From a virus: a stretch of DNA of 20,218 nucleotides. This document shows, one piece after another, positions 7,688-20,218 of this stretch. The position numbers were made by a program, and so were the translations under genes. The stretch spans positions 1 to 20,218 of the IMG/VR virus record IMGVR_UViG_3300049783_001672; one strand, given 5' to 3'. Position 1 is the stretch's first letter. Each line of letters starts with the position of its first letter. The notes below the pieces were generated by a model that did not search any database, had not been told where the DNA came from, and saw nothing but the letters and a program-made list of their open reading frames with translations.

Positions 7688-7917
7688 TGACAGCGAATAC
7701 GTTGCCTCTATGTTACGACAAGCTTGACCGGGAAGTTAGGGTAGGCGATTATGTCGCCTACCCTATCACCGCCAGCATTCTAGGCGTCGGAAAAGTTATT
7801 AAAATAAGTAAAATACAACTTCATATCGAAGTGGCATGGTGTGATGTCAGAAAACGACATGACCAAGTTATTAAGATTGGCGATGCCGACATAATTATGT
7901 ATAAGTTGAAACAATAA
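7687..7917 (+). CDS. Small SH3/KOW-like beta-barrel protein
   Basis: A 76-residue protein. ATG 7687 overlaps the upstream stop; an in-frame TTG one codon earlier is less likely. The stretch VRVGDYVAYP...GVGKVIKISKIQLHIEVAW...HDQVIKI has the alternating hydrophobic pattern and the VGDxVxYP...G.V..I signature of small SH3/KOW/Tudor-type barrels, common in phage accessory proteins and often nucleic-acid or protein binding. The C-terminus ADIIMYKLKQ closely matches the C-terminal end of the repeat-protein family (EQIIMWKLLQ). A perfect 12-bp hairpin lies within the VGDYVAYP codons. It is followed by the AGGAG that serves DNA polymerase. Confidence 0.85.
   Translation: MTANTLPLCYDKLDREVRVGDYVAYPITASILGVGKVIKISKIQLHIEVAWCDVRKRHDQVIKIGDADIIMYKLKQ
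7737..7765 (+). promoter_or_regulatory. Perfect 12-bp intragenic stem-loop
   Basis: TAGGGTAGGCGA (7737-7748), loop TTATG, TCGCCTACCCTA (7754-7765). It lies 50 nt after the ATG of the beta-barrel gene, with no following T-tract, so it is not a standard intrinsic terminator. One of a set of gene-start hairpins in this window with unrelated sequences. Confidence 0.8.
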
Positions 7918-7945: not shown

Positions 7946-9550
7946 ATGCATGACAAAAATCGAGATATAATTAATATTGTCGAACGTGATGCCAGTGGCA
8001 AACGAGTCTTTCTCGAAAAGAACGCAGAATATGGATTTTACTACGCTGATCCAAAAGGCAAATTCACCAGCATTCACGGCGATAAGCTAAGCAGATTTCA
8101 GACAGACAGCAAGCGATTATTCAACAAAGAAAAAAAGATTCATGGATACAAGAAGATTTTTGAAAGTGATATGAATCTTATCTTCAAGTGTCTTGCTGAT
8201 AATTATAAAGATGCTGATTCTGCTGTATTAAATGTTGGATTTTTCGATATTGAAGTCGAAAAAGTTAAAGATCGCGGATGGGCACCAGTAAGTGATCCTT
8301 TTGCCAGAATAACCGCAATTAGCTTTCATCCAAAATGGCTCAATCAAACTATTTGTTTGGTGGTCGCCCCGGATGAAATGACATTTGAAGAAGCAACAGA
8401 AATATGTGACAGCATTGAAAATTGTTTCCTTATGGATGATGAAGTGCAAATGCTGCATGCATTCATTGAATTGATTGACGATGCGGATATTCTAAGTGGC
8501 TGGAACTCCGAGGGGTTTGATATTCCATATCTTGTCAATAGAATTGCAAGAGTTTTAGGGAAATCGTATCTGCGGAATCTTTGTCTGTGGAATCAGTATC
8601 CGGAACGTCGAATGGTTATGAAATTTGATAAAGAAGAAGAGACATTTGATCTTGTCGGGCGCGTCCATTTGGATTACATGGCTCTATACAAGAAGTATAC
8701 ATACAGTGTAATGCATTCATACAGTCTAGATAGTATTTCTGCACATGAATTGAAATCACAAAAGGTTCCATATGATGGCACTTTAGATCAGTTATACAAC
8801 AACGACTTTAAGAAATTCATTCTATACAGCATTCAAGATACTGCATTGCTTCGCCAATTAGACGATAAATTGCAGTATATTGAACTTGTCAACATGATCG
8901 CACATGCAAACACCGTCAAGATGCAAACTGTCTTGGGATCAGTCGCTCAGATTGATCAGGCGATAGCCAATGAGGCGCATGGGCGGGGCTTGATCGTGCC
9001 TGACAAGCGTAGGGGGCAAATATCTCCGAAGGCTGCTGGCGCGTATGTGGCGCATCCTAAGGTGGGGCTACATGATTGGGCTGCAAGCATCGACCTTAGT
9101 TCCTTGTATCCATCGATCCTCAGAGCATGTAATATGAGTCCGGAAACCATTGTGGCGCAAGTCAGGCAAGATTTAACCGCCGCAATGATTGAATCATTCC
9201 GCACGCCGAGAACAAAAGAAGACAATCATGTCCCCAGAGCATGGGAAGGTAAATTTGCATGCGTTGAATATGATTTGATCATGGCGCAAGACAAAGAAAC
9301 TATCCTGCATCTTGATTATGACGATGGGCGCGTCGAAGAATTGACCGGGGCACAAATCTACCGAATGATATTTGCTGAGAACCGACCATGGATTATGTCT
9401 AGTAATTGCACAATTTTCACCACTGAAAAAGAGGGAGTCGTCCCATCATTACTTTCACGTTGGTATTTTGAGCGACAGGAATTACAGGCAAAAAAAGGAA
9501 AATGGAGTGATTTGGTCGAAGGCATAACTATTCCCGACAGATTATTATGA
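7946..9550 (+). CDS. 43A: DNA polymerase family B, N-terminal fragment (exonuclease plus palm motif A), gp43A-type
   Basis: A 534-residue protein, the first half of the replicative polymerase. Seen: 3'-5' exonuclease motifs Exo I FFDIEV (D101, E103), Exo II WNSEGFDIP (about 187-192) and Exo III YSIQDTALL (about 292-298), then polymerase motif A SIDLSSLYPSIL (about 380-391) with the first catalytic Asp. It ends in the first fingers helix (LLSRWYFERQELQAKK...). Motifs B and C are in the next gene, so both products must associate. This split in the fingers region resembles the split gp43 known from some T4-like phages. The listed start is the first ATG. AGGAG (7919-7923) is 22 nt from it but 7 nt from an in-frame ATT at 7931, so the true product may be five residues longer. 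Confidence 0.95.
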   Translation: MHDKNRDIINIVERDASGKRVFLEKNAEYGFYYADPKGKFTSIHGDKLSRFQTDSKRLFNKEKKIHGYKKIFESDMNLIFKCLADNYKDADSAVLNVGFFDIEVEKVKDRGWAPVSDPFARITAISFHPKWLNQTICLVVAPDEMTFEEATEICDSIENCFLMDDEVQMLHAFIELIDDADILSGWNSEGFDIPYLVNRIARVLGKSYLRNLCLWNQYPERRMVMKFDKEEETFDLVGRVHLDYMALYKKYTYSVMHSYSLDSISAHELKSQKVPYDGTLDQLYNNDFKKFILYSIQDTALLRQLDDKLQYIELVNMIAHANTVKMQTVLGSVAQIDQAIANEAHGRGLIVPDKRRGQISPKAAGAYVAHPKVGLHDWAASIDLSSLYPSILRACNMSPETIVAQVRQDLTAAMIESFRTPRTKEDNHVPRAWEGKFACVEYDLIMAQDKETILHLDYDDGRVEELTGAQIYRMIFAENRPWIMSSNCTIFTTEKEGVVPSLLSRWYFERQELQAKKGKWSDLVEGITIPDRLL

Positions 9551-9567: not shown

Positions 9568-10782
9568 TTGAAGACAGATATTGACTTTGCCAGATTAGAC
9601 CAGATATTTGCGAAAGGAACAAAAGAGGAATTATTGTCTTTTTGTTCAGAAAATGATCTGGAAATAAAAGATGGTAAAATTGTGGCAATTGATCCAGTTG
9701 CGGCAAAAGCAAATGAATCCTTTTGGGACAAACGCCAATTAGTCAGAAAGATTTTGCTCAACAGCTTATATGGCGCTCTATTGAACGCAGGAAGTAGGTT
9801 CTTCGATTTCCGACTTGGCCAGAGTACGACTTTGACTGGACGTGGGATTGATCAGCATATGGCTGCTGGCGTAAATGAAATTATCACTGGCGTCTATCAA
9901 CATGACGGCGCTGCAATCCTGTACTGCGACACAGATTCTTCATATTTCACTGCATACCCAACATATAAGCCCATGATTGACTCGGGCGAAATTAATTGGG
10001 ATGTGGAAACTATCATTACATTATATGACGAAATATGCCGTCAGATCAATGATACTTTTGTCGATCATATGGCAAGGAAGCATCATTGCCCGACAAAAAA
10101 TGGCGCGATTATTAAAGCTGCCAGAGAAGTTGTTGCGGAAAAAACTCTGTTCATCAAAAAGAAAAAATATGCTCTTTTAGTTATTGATGACGGCGGGAAA
10201 CGAAAAGACGTTGGCGGCAAGCGTGGAAAACTGAAGGTAACAGGGCTAGATATTAAACGCAGCGATACTCCTGCATTTGTCCAGAACTTTCTTGAAGAAA
10301 TTGTCATGATGACATTGACTGGTATTTCCAAAGAAGAAATCATCCAACGAATTATCAAATTCAGGACTGAATTTCGAGCAATGCCCTCATGGCACAAGGG
10401 AACTCCAAAACAGGTCAACAACCTAACCAGTAAAACAAAGACATGGCGCAAGACCGGCAAATGTGGAGTCGGACACGTTCTTGCTGCTATCAATTACAAC
10501 GAACTACTGAAACTAAACAACGACACAAACAGTATGCCTATTGTGGACAGTATGAAAACTATTGTTTGTAAACTAAAAGACAATCAGTTTGGGATGACAA
10601 GTATTGGTATCCCCACAGACGAAAGTAGAGTTCCGGACTGGTTCAAGGCATTGCCATTTGATGATAATTTGATGGAAGACACCCTGATCGACAAAAAATT
10701 AGACAATGTTATTGGTTGTCTTGATTGGGATATTAGTTCTTCTAATATAAAAACAACATTTAATGATCTATTCGGCTTTTAG
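9568..10782 (+). CDS. 43B: DNA polymerase family B, C-terminal fragment (fingers, palm motifs B/C, thumb), gp43B-type
   Basis: A 404-residue protein. Motif B is RQLVRKILLNSLYGALLNAG (K61, N65, Y68), motif C is LYCDTDSSY (D121, D123), and a KKKYALL (KxY) element follows, then the thumb. The first ~55 residues are a charged segment (KGTKEELLSFCSENDLEIKDGK) that would sit in the fingers. The C-terminus FNDLFGF resembles the clamp-binding peptide at the end of T4/RB69 gp43, which fits the gp45-type clamp encoded next. Start: TTG 9568 with AAAGGA 6 nt upstream. The 17-nt gap from the first fragment and the change of frame mean it is independently initiated, not a frameshift product. Together the halves (938 residues) are slightly longer than T4 gp43 (898). 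No homing endonuclease or intein motif is present at the break. Confidence 0.95.
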   Translation: MKTDIDFARLDQIFAKGTKEELLSFCSENDLEIKDGKIVAIDPVAAKANESFWDKRQLVRKILLNSLYGALLNAGSRFFDFRLGQSTTLTGRGIDQHMAAGVNEIITGVYQHDGAAILYCDTDSSYFTAYPTYKPMIDSGEINWDVETIITLYDEICRQINDTFVDHMARKHHCPTKNGAIIKAAREVVAEKTLFIKKKKYALLVIDDGGKRKDVGGKRGKLKVTGLDIKRSDTPAFVQNFLEEIVMMTLTGISKEEIIQRIIKFRTEFRAMPSWHKGTPKQVNNLTSKTKTWRKTGKCGVGHVLAAINYNELLKLNNDTNSMPIVDSMKTIVCKLKDNQFGMTSIGIPTDESRVPDWFKALPFDDNLMEDTLIDKKLDNVIGCLDWDISSSNIKTTFNDLFGF

Positions 10783-10838: not shown

Positions 10839-11591
10839 ATGGAACCAAAAACAGTATTACTTGACGTTCTCAAGCATACAGCCGGACTAGGCATGATCGA
10901 GGCGATTAAGATCACTGGCACCGACGAATCCACTCAACTTGATGCAATTGATCCAGAAAAAACAATGGTCTTAACTGCAACTCTCCATGAGCCTGTCCCT
11001 GAATTTAAAGGGGAATTTGGATTTGGCAATCTGGGGTATTTGAGTAGTCTCACAAAACTCTCAAATTACAGGGCAGACGATGCAACCGTTTCTGTTATCA
11101 GGCAGAAAATTGAAAACGAAGAAGTGCCAACTTCAATTGTTTTTAAAGACGGAAGCGGGAGTAAAGACCAATATCGTTGTATGTCAGCAGCTATCGTTGA
11201 ACAGGTCTTGAAATTACAAGGCAAGAAGTTCAAGGGCGCAAATTGGAAAATTACAATTGATCCCACCATACAGAAAGTCAATCAGCTTTCAGAAGTCGCC
11301 AGCATTTATTCTGGCATTGAGCCTACATTTTCAGTAACAGTCGAGGATGGCAATCTAGTCTTCGGAGTGGGCAACGCACAAGGGGCGCTGACAGGCAGAC
11401 GAATTTTTGCAACAGATGTCACCGGAAAACTTGACGCGGTATGGAGTTGGAAGCTATCAACCGTGCTGAGCATTTTAAAATTGGGCGTAACTGGAACATG
11501 TGTGATGAAATTCAGCGAAGGGGTTTGTCAGATTGATATCGATTCAGGTATTGCGCTTTACAGCTACATTCTTCCGGCTCTGATGAATTAA
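10839..11591 (+). CDS. 45: DNA polymerase sliding clamp (T4 gp45-like)
   Basis: A 250-residue protein, close in size to T4 gp45 (228). It lacks short catalytic motifs, as expected. The assignment rests on overall pattern: two halves with LTKLSNYRADDATVSVIRQK and VNQLSEVASIYSGIEPTFSVTVEDGNLVFGVGNAQG, then a C-terminal strand-rich segment ending SEGVCQIDIDSGIALYSYILPALMN, comparable to the gp45 C-terminal domain. It follows the polymerase, whose tail looks like a clamp-binding peptide. The trimeric ring encircles DNA and tethers the polymerase; in T4 it also activates late transcription through gp55/gp33. The gp44/gp62 loader genes are not in this window. Its TAA overlaps the next ATG by one base. 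Confidence 0.85.
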   Translation: MEPKTVLLDVLKHTAGLGMIEAIKITGTDESTQLDAIDPEKTMVLTATLHEPVPEFKGEFGFGNLGYLSSLTKLSNYRADDATVSVIRQKIENEEVPTSIVFKDGSGSKDQYRCMSAAIVEQVLKLQGKKFKGANWKITIDPTIQKVNQLSEVASIYSGIEPTFSVTVEDGNLVFGVGNAQGALTGRRIFATDVTGKLDAVWSWKLSTVLSILKLGVTGTCVMKFSEGVCQIDIDSGIALYSYILPALMN

Positions 11592-11839: not shown

Positions 11840-12151
11840 ATGAAGACTTCAACTACCTTAGCCGACCTTAAATTCGATCTTCTGAAGATAACAGAACCCT
11901 ATGACGGGCTTCTTGAGGTCACGAATACCCACCCTGTCAGAAAATTATTTGTTTCTTATCTTAGGGACTTGCAGGCGGATAAAATGATCTATGATTTCTC
12001 GATTGACATTGAAAGCAAGACTGACACCATCACATTCAACGTGAATGTCAGATTGCAAAATGGGCGCGCTCCTAAAAAATTACGAATCCACGTCAGGACT
12101 TTTATCGGATCATCGTGGAATCCACGTCGATTGTCCTCCCATCTTCGTTGA
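11840..12151 (+). CDS. Conserved-looking phage hypothetical protein
   Basis: A 103-residue protein from ATG 11840 (AAGGA 9 nt upstream). An in-frame ATG at 11816 has no ribosome binding site and would add eight residues. Composition: helix-rich N-terminal half (LADLKFDLLKITEPYDGLLEV...RKLFVSYLRDLQADK), then a two-strand pattern (IYDFSIDIES, TITFNVNVRLQNGRAPKKLRIHV) and a basic tail (WNPRRLSSHLR). I do not recognise the family. Its 3' end carries the first of three operator-like elements (12139-12149) and a direct repeat GAATCCACGTC (about 12084 and 12117). Confidence 0.75.
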   Translation: MKTSTTLADLKFDLLKITEPYDGLLEVTNTHPVRKLFVSYLRDLQADKMIYDFSIDIESKTDTITFNVNVRLQNGRAPKKLRIHVRTFIGSSWNPRRLSSHLR

Positions 12152-12209
12152 TTTCAATTGACGCCAATGAACGAAGATGGTATGATAGAAAAATCACCAT
12201 CTTCGTTCA
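12139..12209 (+). promoter_or_regulatory. Promoter flanked by three inverted/direct operator-like elements
   Basis: Promoter: TTGACG (12158-12163), 17-bp spacer, TATGAT (12181-12186). Element A CCATCTTCGTT (12139-12149) is upstream of the -35. Element B, its reverse complement within TGAACGAAGATGGT (12168-12181), fills the spacer and touches the -10. Element C ACCATCTTCGTTCA (12196-12209) lies at the expected transcription start. B and C form a perfect 14-bp inverted repeat with a 14-nt gap; A and B form an alternative 11-bp one. Three copies in alternating orientation around one promoter look like repressor operators. Alternatively B/C could fold as a cruciform. AAGGA follows at 12213. Confidence 0.75.
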
Positions 12210-12223
12210 ATCAAGGATATATC

Positions 12224-12592
12224 ATGACGCTCTCCCCCACTCCGCTAAAAACCAATTCCAAAGAATTTTGGCAAAATATTGTATTCATCACCGGAAAACC
12301 TATCTCTCGCGAGCAATATGGTTTTGGCGTATCAGTCATTCTGGCAATTGGAACCGTTCTTGTTGCCGCCGCGCCAAGCGTTACATTTGCCACGATTATT
12401 CATATTATGATGATTGTTGGTATAGTGAATATCGCTGAACTGCGCGCCATTGTTCTCAAGATCAACAGACTATGGGCATGGACAATTATAATCGGCTCAA
12501 TGTATCCTGTCGTTGCCGTCATTCCTTTGCTTTTCTTTTGCTTGGCGCGTCGTGCATCTGATGGAAAAATCACCCTTCTAAACAGGAAATAA
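12224..12592 (+). CDS. Small integral membrane protein
   Basis: A 122-residue protein from ATG 12224, which has AAGGA 6 nt upstream. An in-frame TTG at 12158 overlaps the promoter -35 and is not a credible start. Three hydrophobic segments: GFGVSVILAIGTVLVAAA, TFATIIHIMMIVGIVNI and WTIIIGSMYPVVAVIPLLFF, with basic ends (RRASDGK...NRK), consistent with an inner-membrane protein. The FITGKPISREQY start and INRLW...PLLFFCL text loosely recall DUF805-type inner membrane proteins; a holin or superinfection-exclusion role is equally possible. It is the only gene here under the three-element promoter, then reads into peptide deformylase. Confidence 0.75.
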   Translation: MTLSPTPLKTNSKEFWQNIVFITGKPISREQYGFGVSVILAIGTVLVAAAPSVTFATIIHIMMIVGIVNIAELRAIVLKINRLWAWTIIIGSMYPVVAVIPLLFFCLARRASDGKITLLNRK

Positions 12593-16721: not shown

Positions 16722-17065
16722 CCGAGAAAAAGGTAAAGGGGAGAATCATTTCCCCTTTACCTACCGCCTTGCCTGTTTCTAATTTGGCAAGGCGGGCATT
16801 ATACCAACAGAAATACCCCGAATCACAACAAGTTATTGATGACCTTATTGGACTACATCCAACAATTACTGATATAATCAACTGGAAGGGTTCATGGCTT
16901 CCATTTACGAAATTCGTGGTATCTGTGCCAAATACTGACACCAACGCTCCAATTCTAAGAAAAGCAATCCATCCATATATGATTGAGGTAAATAGAGGGC
17001 GAGAAAATTCCGAATATAAATTTTATAATCAGGATGATTTTTTTATGTTCAAGTTATCACAATGA
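16718..17065 (+). CDS. Small hypothetical protein with FFMFKLSQ tail and two start-proximal hairpins
   Basis: A 115-residue protein from the ATG that overlaps the MoxR stop (ATGA). The basic N-terminus MTEKKVKGRIISPLP is encoded by a perfect 12-bp stem-loop and the next residues (TALPVSNLARR) by a 10-bp one. The C-terminal half (GSWLPFTKFVVSVPNTDTNAP...EVNRGR...YKFYNQ) is beta-rich, ending DDFFMFKLSQ, a version of the recurrent IIMxKLxQ tail. Layout resembles the following gene (W..F.V...PI/P...Y..EV...FKL), so the two may be distant paralogues. Function unknown; lying between the MoxR and VWA genes, it might be an adaptor or substrate. Confidence 0.8.
   Translation: MTEKKVKGRIISPLPTALPVSNLARRALYQQKYPESQQVIDDLIGLHPTITDIINWKGSWLPFTKFVVSVPNTDTNAPILRKAIHPYMIEVNRGRENSEYKFYNQDDFFMFKLSQ
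16731..16795 (+). promoter_or_regulatory. Two adjacent perfect intragenic stem-loops
   Basis: Hairpin 1: AGGTAAAGGGGA (16731-16742), 8-nt loop, TCCCCTTTACCT (16751-16762), 12 bp. One base later, hairpin 2: CCGCCTTGCC (16764-16773), 12-nt loop, GGCAAGGCGG (16786-16795), 10 bp. They start 13 nt after the ATG of the gene at 16718. Neither is followed by a T-tract. Confidence 0.85.
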
Positions 17066-17377: not shown

Positions 17378-18679
17378 ATGAAACTTCCAGAAAATATCAC
17401 GCAGGCGCAATCTGACGAAAATGTCAAAGCTGCCCGTTATAAACTTGCCATGGCACGATCACGCCTTCTATTTGCACACCCATTTTTTGGGCAAATTGCA
17501 ATGCAGTTGCCTCTTGTGGCGCGGCGGGGAAAGTGTTCTACTGCGGCGACAGACGGACGATCCTTCTTCTTCAATCCAGAATTCGTTATGAATTTGGATG
17601 ACAAGGAACTTGTATTTCTTGTAATTCATGAATTAGGTCATTGCATCTATCAACATATGATCCGTCGAAGTAATCGAGACCCGAAGCTATATAATATTGC
17701 ATGTGATTATGTCATTAATAACATGATTGAAAATGATGTTATTAATGTATCAAGTTGCCATGCGGGCAAGGCGGGATCAACGTATTGTCGAATTGTTACA
17801 TTTATAAAGCCATATTTGGATCACAAATATGATGGAATGTCATCAGAACAAGTCTATGAGTTGCTGAAAAAAGAACAAGATGCCGGTGGGAAGCCCGAAG
17901 ATAAAGGCGAACTTCTTGACTGGCACCCTGATATGAATGGCGATGACCAATCAGACTCTGATGGTGAAGATGATGGCGAAACAGACGCCAGAGGTCAAGT
18001 AATTGGCGTGATGTCTAACGATGATCGCGATGATCTTACGCAGGAAATTCGTGCTCATATTATCAGTGCTGCATCGGCTGGCGGCGCTCCTGCTGACATT
18101 CAGCGTTTGATTGCCGATCTTATTGAACCAACGATTGACTGGACTGATATTATCTCGGCAACCATTGAAAGCAAATATACCGCTGATTATTCATTCATGC
18201 GAACAAGTCGCAAAGGCGCTCATCTACAGGCAATTCTTCCCGGTCAAGTCCCGGAAGAAGCAATCAATGTCTTTTTGGCAATCGATACCTCTGGATCAGT
18301 TAGCGAAGACATGCTTCGTGAATTTCTTTCTGAAATCAGTGGAATGATGGCGCAGTATAACAACTATATTATTAGAATCTGTCAGTTCGACACCAGCGTT
18401 TATGGTTATGCAGAATACACCCAAGATTCCGGTGAAGATATTGCTGATTATCCGTTGCGCGGTGGGGGCGGCACTAAGTTTATGGTAATTTGGGATTACA
18501 TGAAAAAGCACAGTATTGAGCCTGATCAACTTATCGTATTCACTGATGGAATGCCAAATCCTTCTACTGCATGGGGTGATCCGGACTATTGTGATACCAC
18601 CTTCCTAATCCATACACAGTATGGACGTGCTGTTGCGCCATATGGTGAATCAGTTTATTATAATGGCGGAAACGCATGA
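17378..18679 (+). CDS. Putative metallopeptidase-like domain plus von Willebrand factor A domain protein
   Basis: A 433-residue protein. N-terminal domain with a zincin-type HELGH (H84-E85-L86-G87-H88) and downstream YNIACDYVINNMI, as in the predicted metallopeptidase domain of the DUF2201 family. An acidic linker (about 182-205, DGDD/SDSDGEDDGETD) leads to a C-terminal VWA-like domain with the MIDAS motif FLAIDTSGSVSEDML (about 298-312) and VFTDGMPNPS (about 386-395). Such proteins pair with MoxR AAA+ ATPases, encoded upstream here, and are thought to link ATP-driven remodelling to metal-dependent binding or proteolysis. Own strong promoter with an operator-like dyad. The final stop overlaps the next start (ATGA). 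Whether the peptidase is active cannot be judged from sequence. Confidence 0.9.
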   Translation: MKLPENITQAQSDENVKAARYKLAMARSRLLFAHPFFGQIAMQLPLVARRGKCSTAATDGRSFFFNPEFVMNLDDKELVFLVIHELGHCIYQHMIRRSNRDPKLYNIACDYVINNMIENDVINVSSCHAGKAGSTYCRIVTFIKPYLDHKYDGMSSEQVYELLKKEQDAGGKPEDKGELLDWHPDMNGDDQSDSDGEDDGETDARGQVIGVMSNDDRDDLTQEIRAHIISAASAGGAPADIQRLIADLIEPTIDWTDIISATIESKYTADYSFMRTSRKGAHLQAILPGQVPEEAINVFLAIDTSGSVSEDMLREFLSEISGMMAQYNNYIIRICQFDTSVYGYAEYTQDSGEDIADYPLRGGGGTKFMVIWDYMKKHSIEPDQLIVFTDGMPNPSTAWGDPDYCDTTFLIHTQYGRAVAPYGESVYYNGGNA

Positions 18680-18966
18680 TCCGTGTGTTTCGTCGCAAAA
18701 CACTGAGCATGGATGAATTTGAAACCATGCTCAGTGACAGCACCAAAGAAAAAATGGCGCGCAATATTGTTTCTATTGCATATCAGAACACAGATATTGT
18801 CGCTATGATATCTGCCCTTGATCTGGATAACAGCAAGGGATTAGTATGCGAACTGATTGCGAAAGACAAGGACATGTATATTGAACATATATATTTTGAG
18901 TTAGGGGAAGACATGGAGCGATGTATTGAACTGATAACGTTGTATAAACTTTCACTAGATGGATGA
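18676..18966 (+). CDS. Small hypothetical protein with start-proximal hairpin
   Basis: A 96-residue protein, with the ATG overlapping the VWA stop. Begins MIRVFRRKTLSMDEFETML; residues TLSMDEFETMLSD are encoded by a perfect 12-bp stem-loop (18701-18736). The rest is helical and acidic (KEKMARNIVSIAYQNTDIVAMIS...LGEDMERCIELITLYKLSLDG). The end LITLYKLSLDG is a weak match to the recurrent IIMxKL tail. Overlaps the next gene by 8 nt. Not recognised. Confidence 0.8.
   Translation: MIRVFRRKTLSMDEFETMLSDSTKEKMARNIVSIAYQNTDIVAMISALDLDNSKGLVCELIAKDKDMYIEHIYFELGEDMERCIELITLYKLSLDG
18701..18736 (+). promoter_or_regulatory. Perfect 12-bp intragenic stem-loop
   Basis: CACTGAGCATGG (18701-18712), 12-nt loop, CCATGCTCAGTG (18725-18736), 25 nt after the ATG of the gene at 18676. 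No T-tract follows. Sequence unrelated to the other hairpins. Confidence 0.85.
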
Positions 18967-19135
18967 TCCTCTGCTAAATATTAGCGACTTGCAAGAAGTA
19001 TTGAATATCTTGCAAGTCGCAATCAAACGCGGCGCGTTTGAGCCAACTGAATTAGCAGCAGTTGGGACGATATATACTATCATTAAAAAATTCGTAGACC
19101 AACACGAAATTAGTGACGAAACAAAAAAGGAATAA
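18959..19135 (+). CDS. Small conserved-looking helical protein (58 residues)
   Basis: ATG 18959 overlaps the end of the preceding gene and the frame runs to TAA 19133-19135. It fills an otherwise empty 180-bp stretch. Two helices: NISDLQEVLNILQVAIKRGAFEP and ELAAVGTIYTIIKKFVDQ, with a polar tail. The pattern (DLQ..LN....A..RGAF...EL..VG..Y....KF) is one I associate with tiny proteins in T4-like marine phages, from memory. DLQEVLNILQVA is encoded by a perfect 13-bp stem-loop. Function unknown. Confidence 0.75.
   Translation: MDDPLLNISDLQEVLNILQVAIKRGAFEPTELAAVGTIYTIIKKFVDQHEISDETKKE
18984..19020 (+). promoter_or_regulatory. Perfect 13-bp intragenic stem-loop
   Basis: GCGACTTGCAAGA (18984-18996), 11-nt loop, TCTTGCAAGTCGC (19008-19020), 25 nt after the ATG of the 58-residue gene. 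No T-tract follows. Confidence 0.85.
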
Positions 19136-20106: not shown

Positions 20107-20218
20107 CAATAAATGCAATTCTTGCGTGCGATACTGAGGGCGGTATCGCACGCAAGGGAATAATGCCTTGGCCCAAAAACAAAGTAGATTTGCGTTTCTT
20201 TTCGCAAATTACCAGAAA
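20103..20218 (+). CDS. folA: Dihydrofolate reductase, 3' part cut by the window edge
   Basis: Only the first 38 codons are present. MTINAILACDTEGGIARKGIMPWPKNKVDLRFFSQIT matches the N-terminus of DHFR: the AILACD strand, the GGIxxxGxMPW loop (Met20-loop region, usually GGIGKxGxLPW) and DLRFFxxIT leading to the first helix. The enzyme reduces dihydrofolate with NADPH and, in T4-like phages (gene frd), supports thymidylate synthesis, so a thymidylate synthase may lie further downstream. Gly-Lys of the loop is replaced by Ala-Arg. A strong perfect hairpin covers codons 7-18. The start overlaps the upstream stop. Confidence 0.9.
   Translation, partial: MTINAILACDTEGGIARKGIMPWPKNKVDLRFFSQITR
20121..20156 (+). 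promoter_or_regulatory. Perfect 14-bp intragenic stem-loop in DHFR
   Basis: CTTGCGTGCGATAC (20121-20134), loop TGAGGGCG, GTATCGCACGCAAG (20143-20156): a GC-rich stem beginning 18 nt after the DHFR start codon. No T-tract follows. The encoded residues are the normal DHFR loop, so the stem is created by codon choice rather than an insertion. Confidence 0.9.

Follow-up and report, generated by a model that had tools for sequence, protein, structure and literature searches.

Why should a virus carry three copies of one 11-bp sequence around a single promoter, directly in front of a gene for a small hydrophobic protein? A sequence-only reading of this locus had proposed an operator-like element with a dedicated repressor or a switch for a host-envelope function, and had pointed out that the middle copy B could pair with either of its neighbours, A and C. 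At issue is whether the copies act as DNA-binding sites, as strands of an RNA structure, or without any regulatory role. The window, i.e. the whole stretch of DNA analysed, comprises 20,218 bp and is a single virus contig (record IMGVR_UViG_3300049783_001672); the genome is incomplete. The features of the locus are as follows.

11840–12151, plus strand: upstream orphan ORF of 103 aa, its stop codon located where copy A ends
12139–12149, plus strand: copy A, CCATCTTCGTT, overlapping the last codons of the upstream ORF
12139–12180, plus strand: alternative A:B hairpin, 11 perfect base pairs around a 20-nt loop, mutually exclusive with the B:C hairpin
12158–12186, plus strand: sigma70-type promoter TTGACG-17-TATGAT with TG before the −10 (extended −10), predicted start at about 12193
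12168–12209, plus strand: B:C hairpin, perfect stem of 14 bp that the inner pairs lengthen to 17 bp; the loop (12182–12195) contains the predicted start
12170–12180, minus strand: copy B, CCATCTTCGTT inverted, occupying the spacer of the promoter as far as the −10
12197–12207, plus strand: copy C, CCATCTTCGTT, spanning positions of about +4 to +14 in the leader as predicted
12213–12217, plus strand: Shine-Dalgarno sequence AAGGA, 3 nt 3' of the hairpin and 6 nt 5' of the ATG
12224–12592, plus strand: downstream orphan hydrophobic protein of 122 aa, the presumed controlled gene

The exactness of the core and its confinement to this site, both claimed before, were borne out. All three copies are exact and lie within 69 bp of the 20,218-bp contig, and a search for the core in this contig revealed no fourth exact copy. 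With up to two mismatches allowed, 8 matches were obtained in the whole contig compared to 7.0 expected, so nothing stands above chance beyond the three exact copies. Of 300 dinucleotide shuffles of the contig, 0 contained an 11-mer with three copies of mixed orientation in a span of 100 bp. The same scan over 3.05 Mb of phage loci, some of them overlapping, returned a second contig of the same phage and two further sites, an AT-rich one in PA5oct and one in simple tandem sequence, neither of which resembles this element. From the shuffles and this rarity we conclude that the element is real and rare. The second contig is 99.84% identical over 12.2 kb, and none of its 19 differences falls in the element; owing to the high overall identity, this conservation carries little weight. 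A search for paired-core patterns in viral contigs led to the near-identical contig alone, an Rfam search of the element gave no match, and comparison of a 121-bp region with phage records by DNA similarity yielded weak chance matches only.

The promoter claim is well supported in silico by a near-consensus sigma70-type match. In total, five near-consensus promoters were found on the plus strand in the gaps of the contig (7367, 10786, 12158, 15278 and 17322); these gaps offer only 614 nt of non-coding DNA, and each promoter is situated 18–31 nt 5' of a start codon. The earlier placement of the copies requires some correction: B lies in the promoter spacer as described but does not reach into the −10 hexamer (12181–12186), and C is near the predicted start but begins about 4 nt after 12193.

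The pairing of B with A (11 bp) or C (14 bp) was confirmed, both being perfect inverted repeats of which only one can form at a time. The arms of the B:C hairpin (12168–12181 and 12196–12209) enclose a loop of 14 nt, and folding adds 3 bp past a 2-nt bulge. Predicted energies amount to −21.3 kcal/mol for the B:C hairpin alone and −16.2 kcal/mol for A:B, while the region 12164–12240 folds with −22.2 kcal/mol (z −4.7). The leader of the own-promoter transcript is predicted to be unstructured (−1.7 kcal/mol). Since the predicted start is located inside the B:C loop, RNA from this promoter would carry C alone, and only RNA read from upstream would fold B:C. In minimum-energy folds of the growing RNA, A:B appears first (at 12180) and B:C after C is made (12205). 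TTGAC begins 10 nt 5' of the B:C hairpin, and the stem ends at 12209, 3 nt from AAGGA (12213) and 14 nt from the ATG.

A simple sequestration of the Shine-Dalgarno sequence specific to read-through RNA is not predicted, as opening it is computed to cost about 2 kcal/mol whether or not the hairpin is present. Translation would therefore have to be blocked by a steric or kinetic route, or through an extra UGUCCU:AGGAUA pairing; weak pairing of the latter kind is present in one minimum-energy fold. An intrinsic terminator was rejected as well, as no T-tract follows the stem (ATCAAGGATA comes next) and the site is absent from the terminator scan.

On the strength of the repeats, the match to a promoter, the folding predictions and a layout that, as described below, recurs in other phages, we favour with moderate confidence a promoter-in-hairpin unit that would tie translation of the membrane protein to its own promoter and favour own-promoter transcripts. 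From these observations we infer a transcription start, read-through, a translational effect and a role of A in the following manner. A polymerase starting at about 12193 would produce a short unstructured leader with arm C only, whereas a polymerase entering from the upstream operon would produce RNA with both arms, able to fold the 17-bp B:C hairpin. The base of this hairpin, 3 nt 5' of the Shine-Dalgarno sequence, should interfere with the loading of ribosomes or else target the RNA for processing, and read-through RNA would yield less membrane protein. Copy A at the upstream stop codon would allow a rival A:B hairpin in read-through RNA, leaving C free; A:B is predicted to form first and then to give way to B:C. 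With a ribosome terminating at the end of the upstream ORF, A would be covered and B:C favoured. The layout that recurs in other phages does not include copy A.

As for the product, the 122-aa protein contains long hydrophobic stretches (residues 31–80 and 83–109), and the proposed host-envelope function agrees with this hydrophobicity and with nothing beyond it. Family searches with the protein gave no match, and no homologues of it or of the 103-aa upstream ORF were found outside the same phage. The contig looks like a fragment of a jumbo phage, judging from its clamp-like protein (10839–11591), which has distant relatives in the phages PA5oct, Phosso and Atu_ph07 (identity at most 38%). Peptide deformylase, DNA polymerase, exonuclease and ATPase are further encoded products. 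The DNA polymerase is apparently split into two ORFs (7946–9550 and 9568–10782) that are 17 bp apart, and its annotation is likewise in pieces in Atu_ph07 and PA5oct. Between 3685 and 7357, about nine related genes with WYLNGxxHRxDGPAxEYxxG repeats are arranged in tandem, mostly with 4-base head-to-tail overlaps.

Perfect hairpins directly 5' of start codons are a repeated feature of Sinorhizobium phage Phosso and of the jumbo contigs G001 and G002, both of 460 kb. In Phosso, five pre-start hairpins have a predicted promoter start in the loop, compared to a mean of 0.08 at shifted positions. TTGAC was found 17–34 nt 5' of the loop 14 times in the first Phosso pieces (2.0 expected), where the layout was first noticed, so that the counts there are not blind. 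In later-fetched pieces, TTGAC at this distance was counted 12 times with about 5.2 expected, which is weaker support from a partial hold-out only, since the criterion was framed on a listing that included these pieces; a stricter count of promoters in loops gave a weak 2 compared to about 0.45. No enrichment of the layout was observed in PA5oct or Atu_ph07. Between G001 and G002, orthologous hairpin arms showed 249 unchanged, 7 compensatory, 7 G-U, 16 broken and 41 gapped pairs, some loci being counted in both directions; the loops are 69% identical with the arms kept. One conserved case (AATGGCTTCACCTA...TAGGTGAAGCCATT-ATAAGGAAAACAAATG) has nearly the same spacing between hairpin and Shine-Dalgarno sequence as here and a changed loop.

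The element described here fits this jumbo-phage layout, in which TTGAC closely precedes a perfect hairpin with 11 bp or more, the predicted start is in the loop and an ATG follows within about 20 nt. The hairpins of Phosso, G001 and G002 similarly have TTGAC about 4–12 nt 5' of the perfect stem-loop, bases resembling a −10 at the edge of the loop and the ATG 0–20 nt 3'. Unlike here, most of them hide the Shine-Dalgarno sequence in the 3' arm, and none has the clean third copy. Separately, G001 and G002 were noted to contain a cassette in repeated copies, GGTTGAC-[CTCCTGTTTCTG ... CAGAAACAGGAG]-ATCGAAC-ATG, whose 3' arm includes the Shine-Dalgarno sequence. In the pieces examined, its tail AAACAGGAGATCGAA was counted 10 and 13 times, and the cassette may be a distinct multi-copy regulatory unit.

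The recurrence bears directly on the operator question. A, B and C could be operators at which a DNA-binding protein, of the phage or of its host, represses or activates the promoter, with B between −35 and −10 and C just past the start. Three exact copies at typical regulatory-site positions around a good promoter are what such a protein would use, and the triple is far beyond chance. Moreover, a clean third copy is absent from all other hairpins surveyed, and A is thus left unexplained by structure alone. However, the cores are not palindromic, and with their centres 31 and 27 bp apart, or about 2.95 and 2.57 helical turns, they do not share one face of the helix. There is no second target within the contig, and its other four promoters carry no repeats of this kind. 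No HTH gene was recognised among the scanned contig proteins, which represent a subset of the ORFs of an incomplete genome. The idea of a genome-wide operator was dropped, as no more copies occur in the contig and 17-mer matches in other viral contigs come without the two other copies and look like chance. Since the same layout with other arm sequences occurs in jumbo phages, structure rather than a sequence-specific operator is indicated. We consider operators unlikely, and the dedicated repressor put forward before is not upheld.

Equally doubtful is an explanation of the repeats as a mutational by-product of template switching or of a 58-bp duplication with no regulatory role. Perfect inverted repeats are unusually numerous in this contig, genes included: with stems of at least 12, 4 intragenic ones were found in the genes tested compared to 0.03 in synonymous shuffles, and their density is three- to six-fold above that in other jumbo phages. 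Further, A and C form an 11-bp direct repeat 58 bp apart, so that copy A may mark a 58-bp duplication. If one 58-bp unit is removed and the flanks are joined, the TGA of the upstream ORF overlaps the ATG of the membrane gene (ATGA), and such a 4-base overlap is the commonest gene junction in the contig (13 of 33 counted). The restored overlap suggests insertion of the promoter unit into what may have been a coupled gene pair. Against a mere by-product, the placement of the repeats relative to promoter, start and Shine-Dalgarno sequence fits a layout that recurs elsewhere, and in that layout the arms are better conserved than the loops.

A more elaborate version would combine this origin with the pairing alternatives. 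In this three-strand RNA switch, A, either covered by a ribosome or freed, would compete with C for B, and the output would read both the promoter used and upstream translation; the promoter would have been installed by the 58-bp duplication splitting a coupled pair. We offer it as a speculative reading with a small chance of being right. Least probable is that the hairpin acts on RNA stability or processing (as an RNase III site or a 5' stabiliser of the downstream message) and not on ribosome loading: a long perfect stem in intergenic RNA without a following T-tract, and a Shine-Dalgarno sequence that lies outside the hairpin with its opening energy unchanged, would suit this role, but a processing site needs no promoter in the 5' arm, and yet this combination recurs in other phages.

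Other hairpins of the contig deserve mention in their own right. Long perfect hairpins lie in coding sequences at 7737–7765, 16731–16762, 16764–16795, 17713–17747, 18701–18736 and 18984–19020; several are within about 50 nt of a start codon, and they share no sequence. Clustering of intragenic hairpins at gene starts was rejected as a general rule, being only slight in other jumbo phages. At the contig end, a 14-bp perfect hairpin (20121–20156) has a 3' arm running into AAGGGAATAATG and may cover the Shine-Dalgarno sequence of the next gene; no clear promoter was found within it.

Should the favoured promoter-in-hairpin reading hold, initiation hairpins with an internal promoter, as known from T4, would not be confined to late genes of T4-like phages. 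The arrangement would constitute a recurrent sigma70-type layout in jumbo phages, by which compact genomes gain promoter-specific translation without a repressor, and the third copy would turn the present element into a simple switch of competing strands. Among known units, the PeSL cassettes of T4-like phages (Arbiol 2010, Comeau 2014) are small intergenic units of early promoter and stem-loop, described as promoter-terminator motifs. The unit found here is likewise a small intergenic promoter with a stem-loop and may likewise be inserted; it differs from PeSL cassettes in lacking a terminator T-tract and in having its promoter within the stem.

In the T4 genes e, soc, 49 and I-TevI, initiation hairpins fold only in upstream-initiated RNA (PMC3014915, PMC2988022). 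As in these genes, the 5' side of a hairpin located at the ribosome-binding site shares sequence with the promoter, here as predicted, and the start site falls within the hairpin in silico (12193 in the loop 12182–12195). The T4 e-type, however, has its Shine-Dalgarno sequence or AUG within the stem, whereas here the former lies 3 nt outside, and its unblocked RNA comes from a late promoter (TATAAATA) instead of TTGACG-17-TATGAT. As these two defining features differ, we do not file the element as a T4 e-type member; the T4 hairpins also have no third arm copy. Lowered translation of long transcripts is a further mark of the T4 e-type. For seg43(25) of Aeromonas phage 25, whose description in the cited section includes no third copy such as the one found here, a very stable hairpin directly 5' of an uncovered ribosome-binding site is reported (PMC2988022). 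This hairpin, which adjoins but spares the ribosome-binding site, is an especially close likeness to the element described here.
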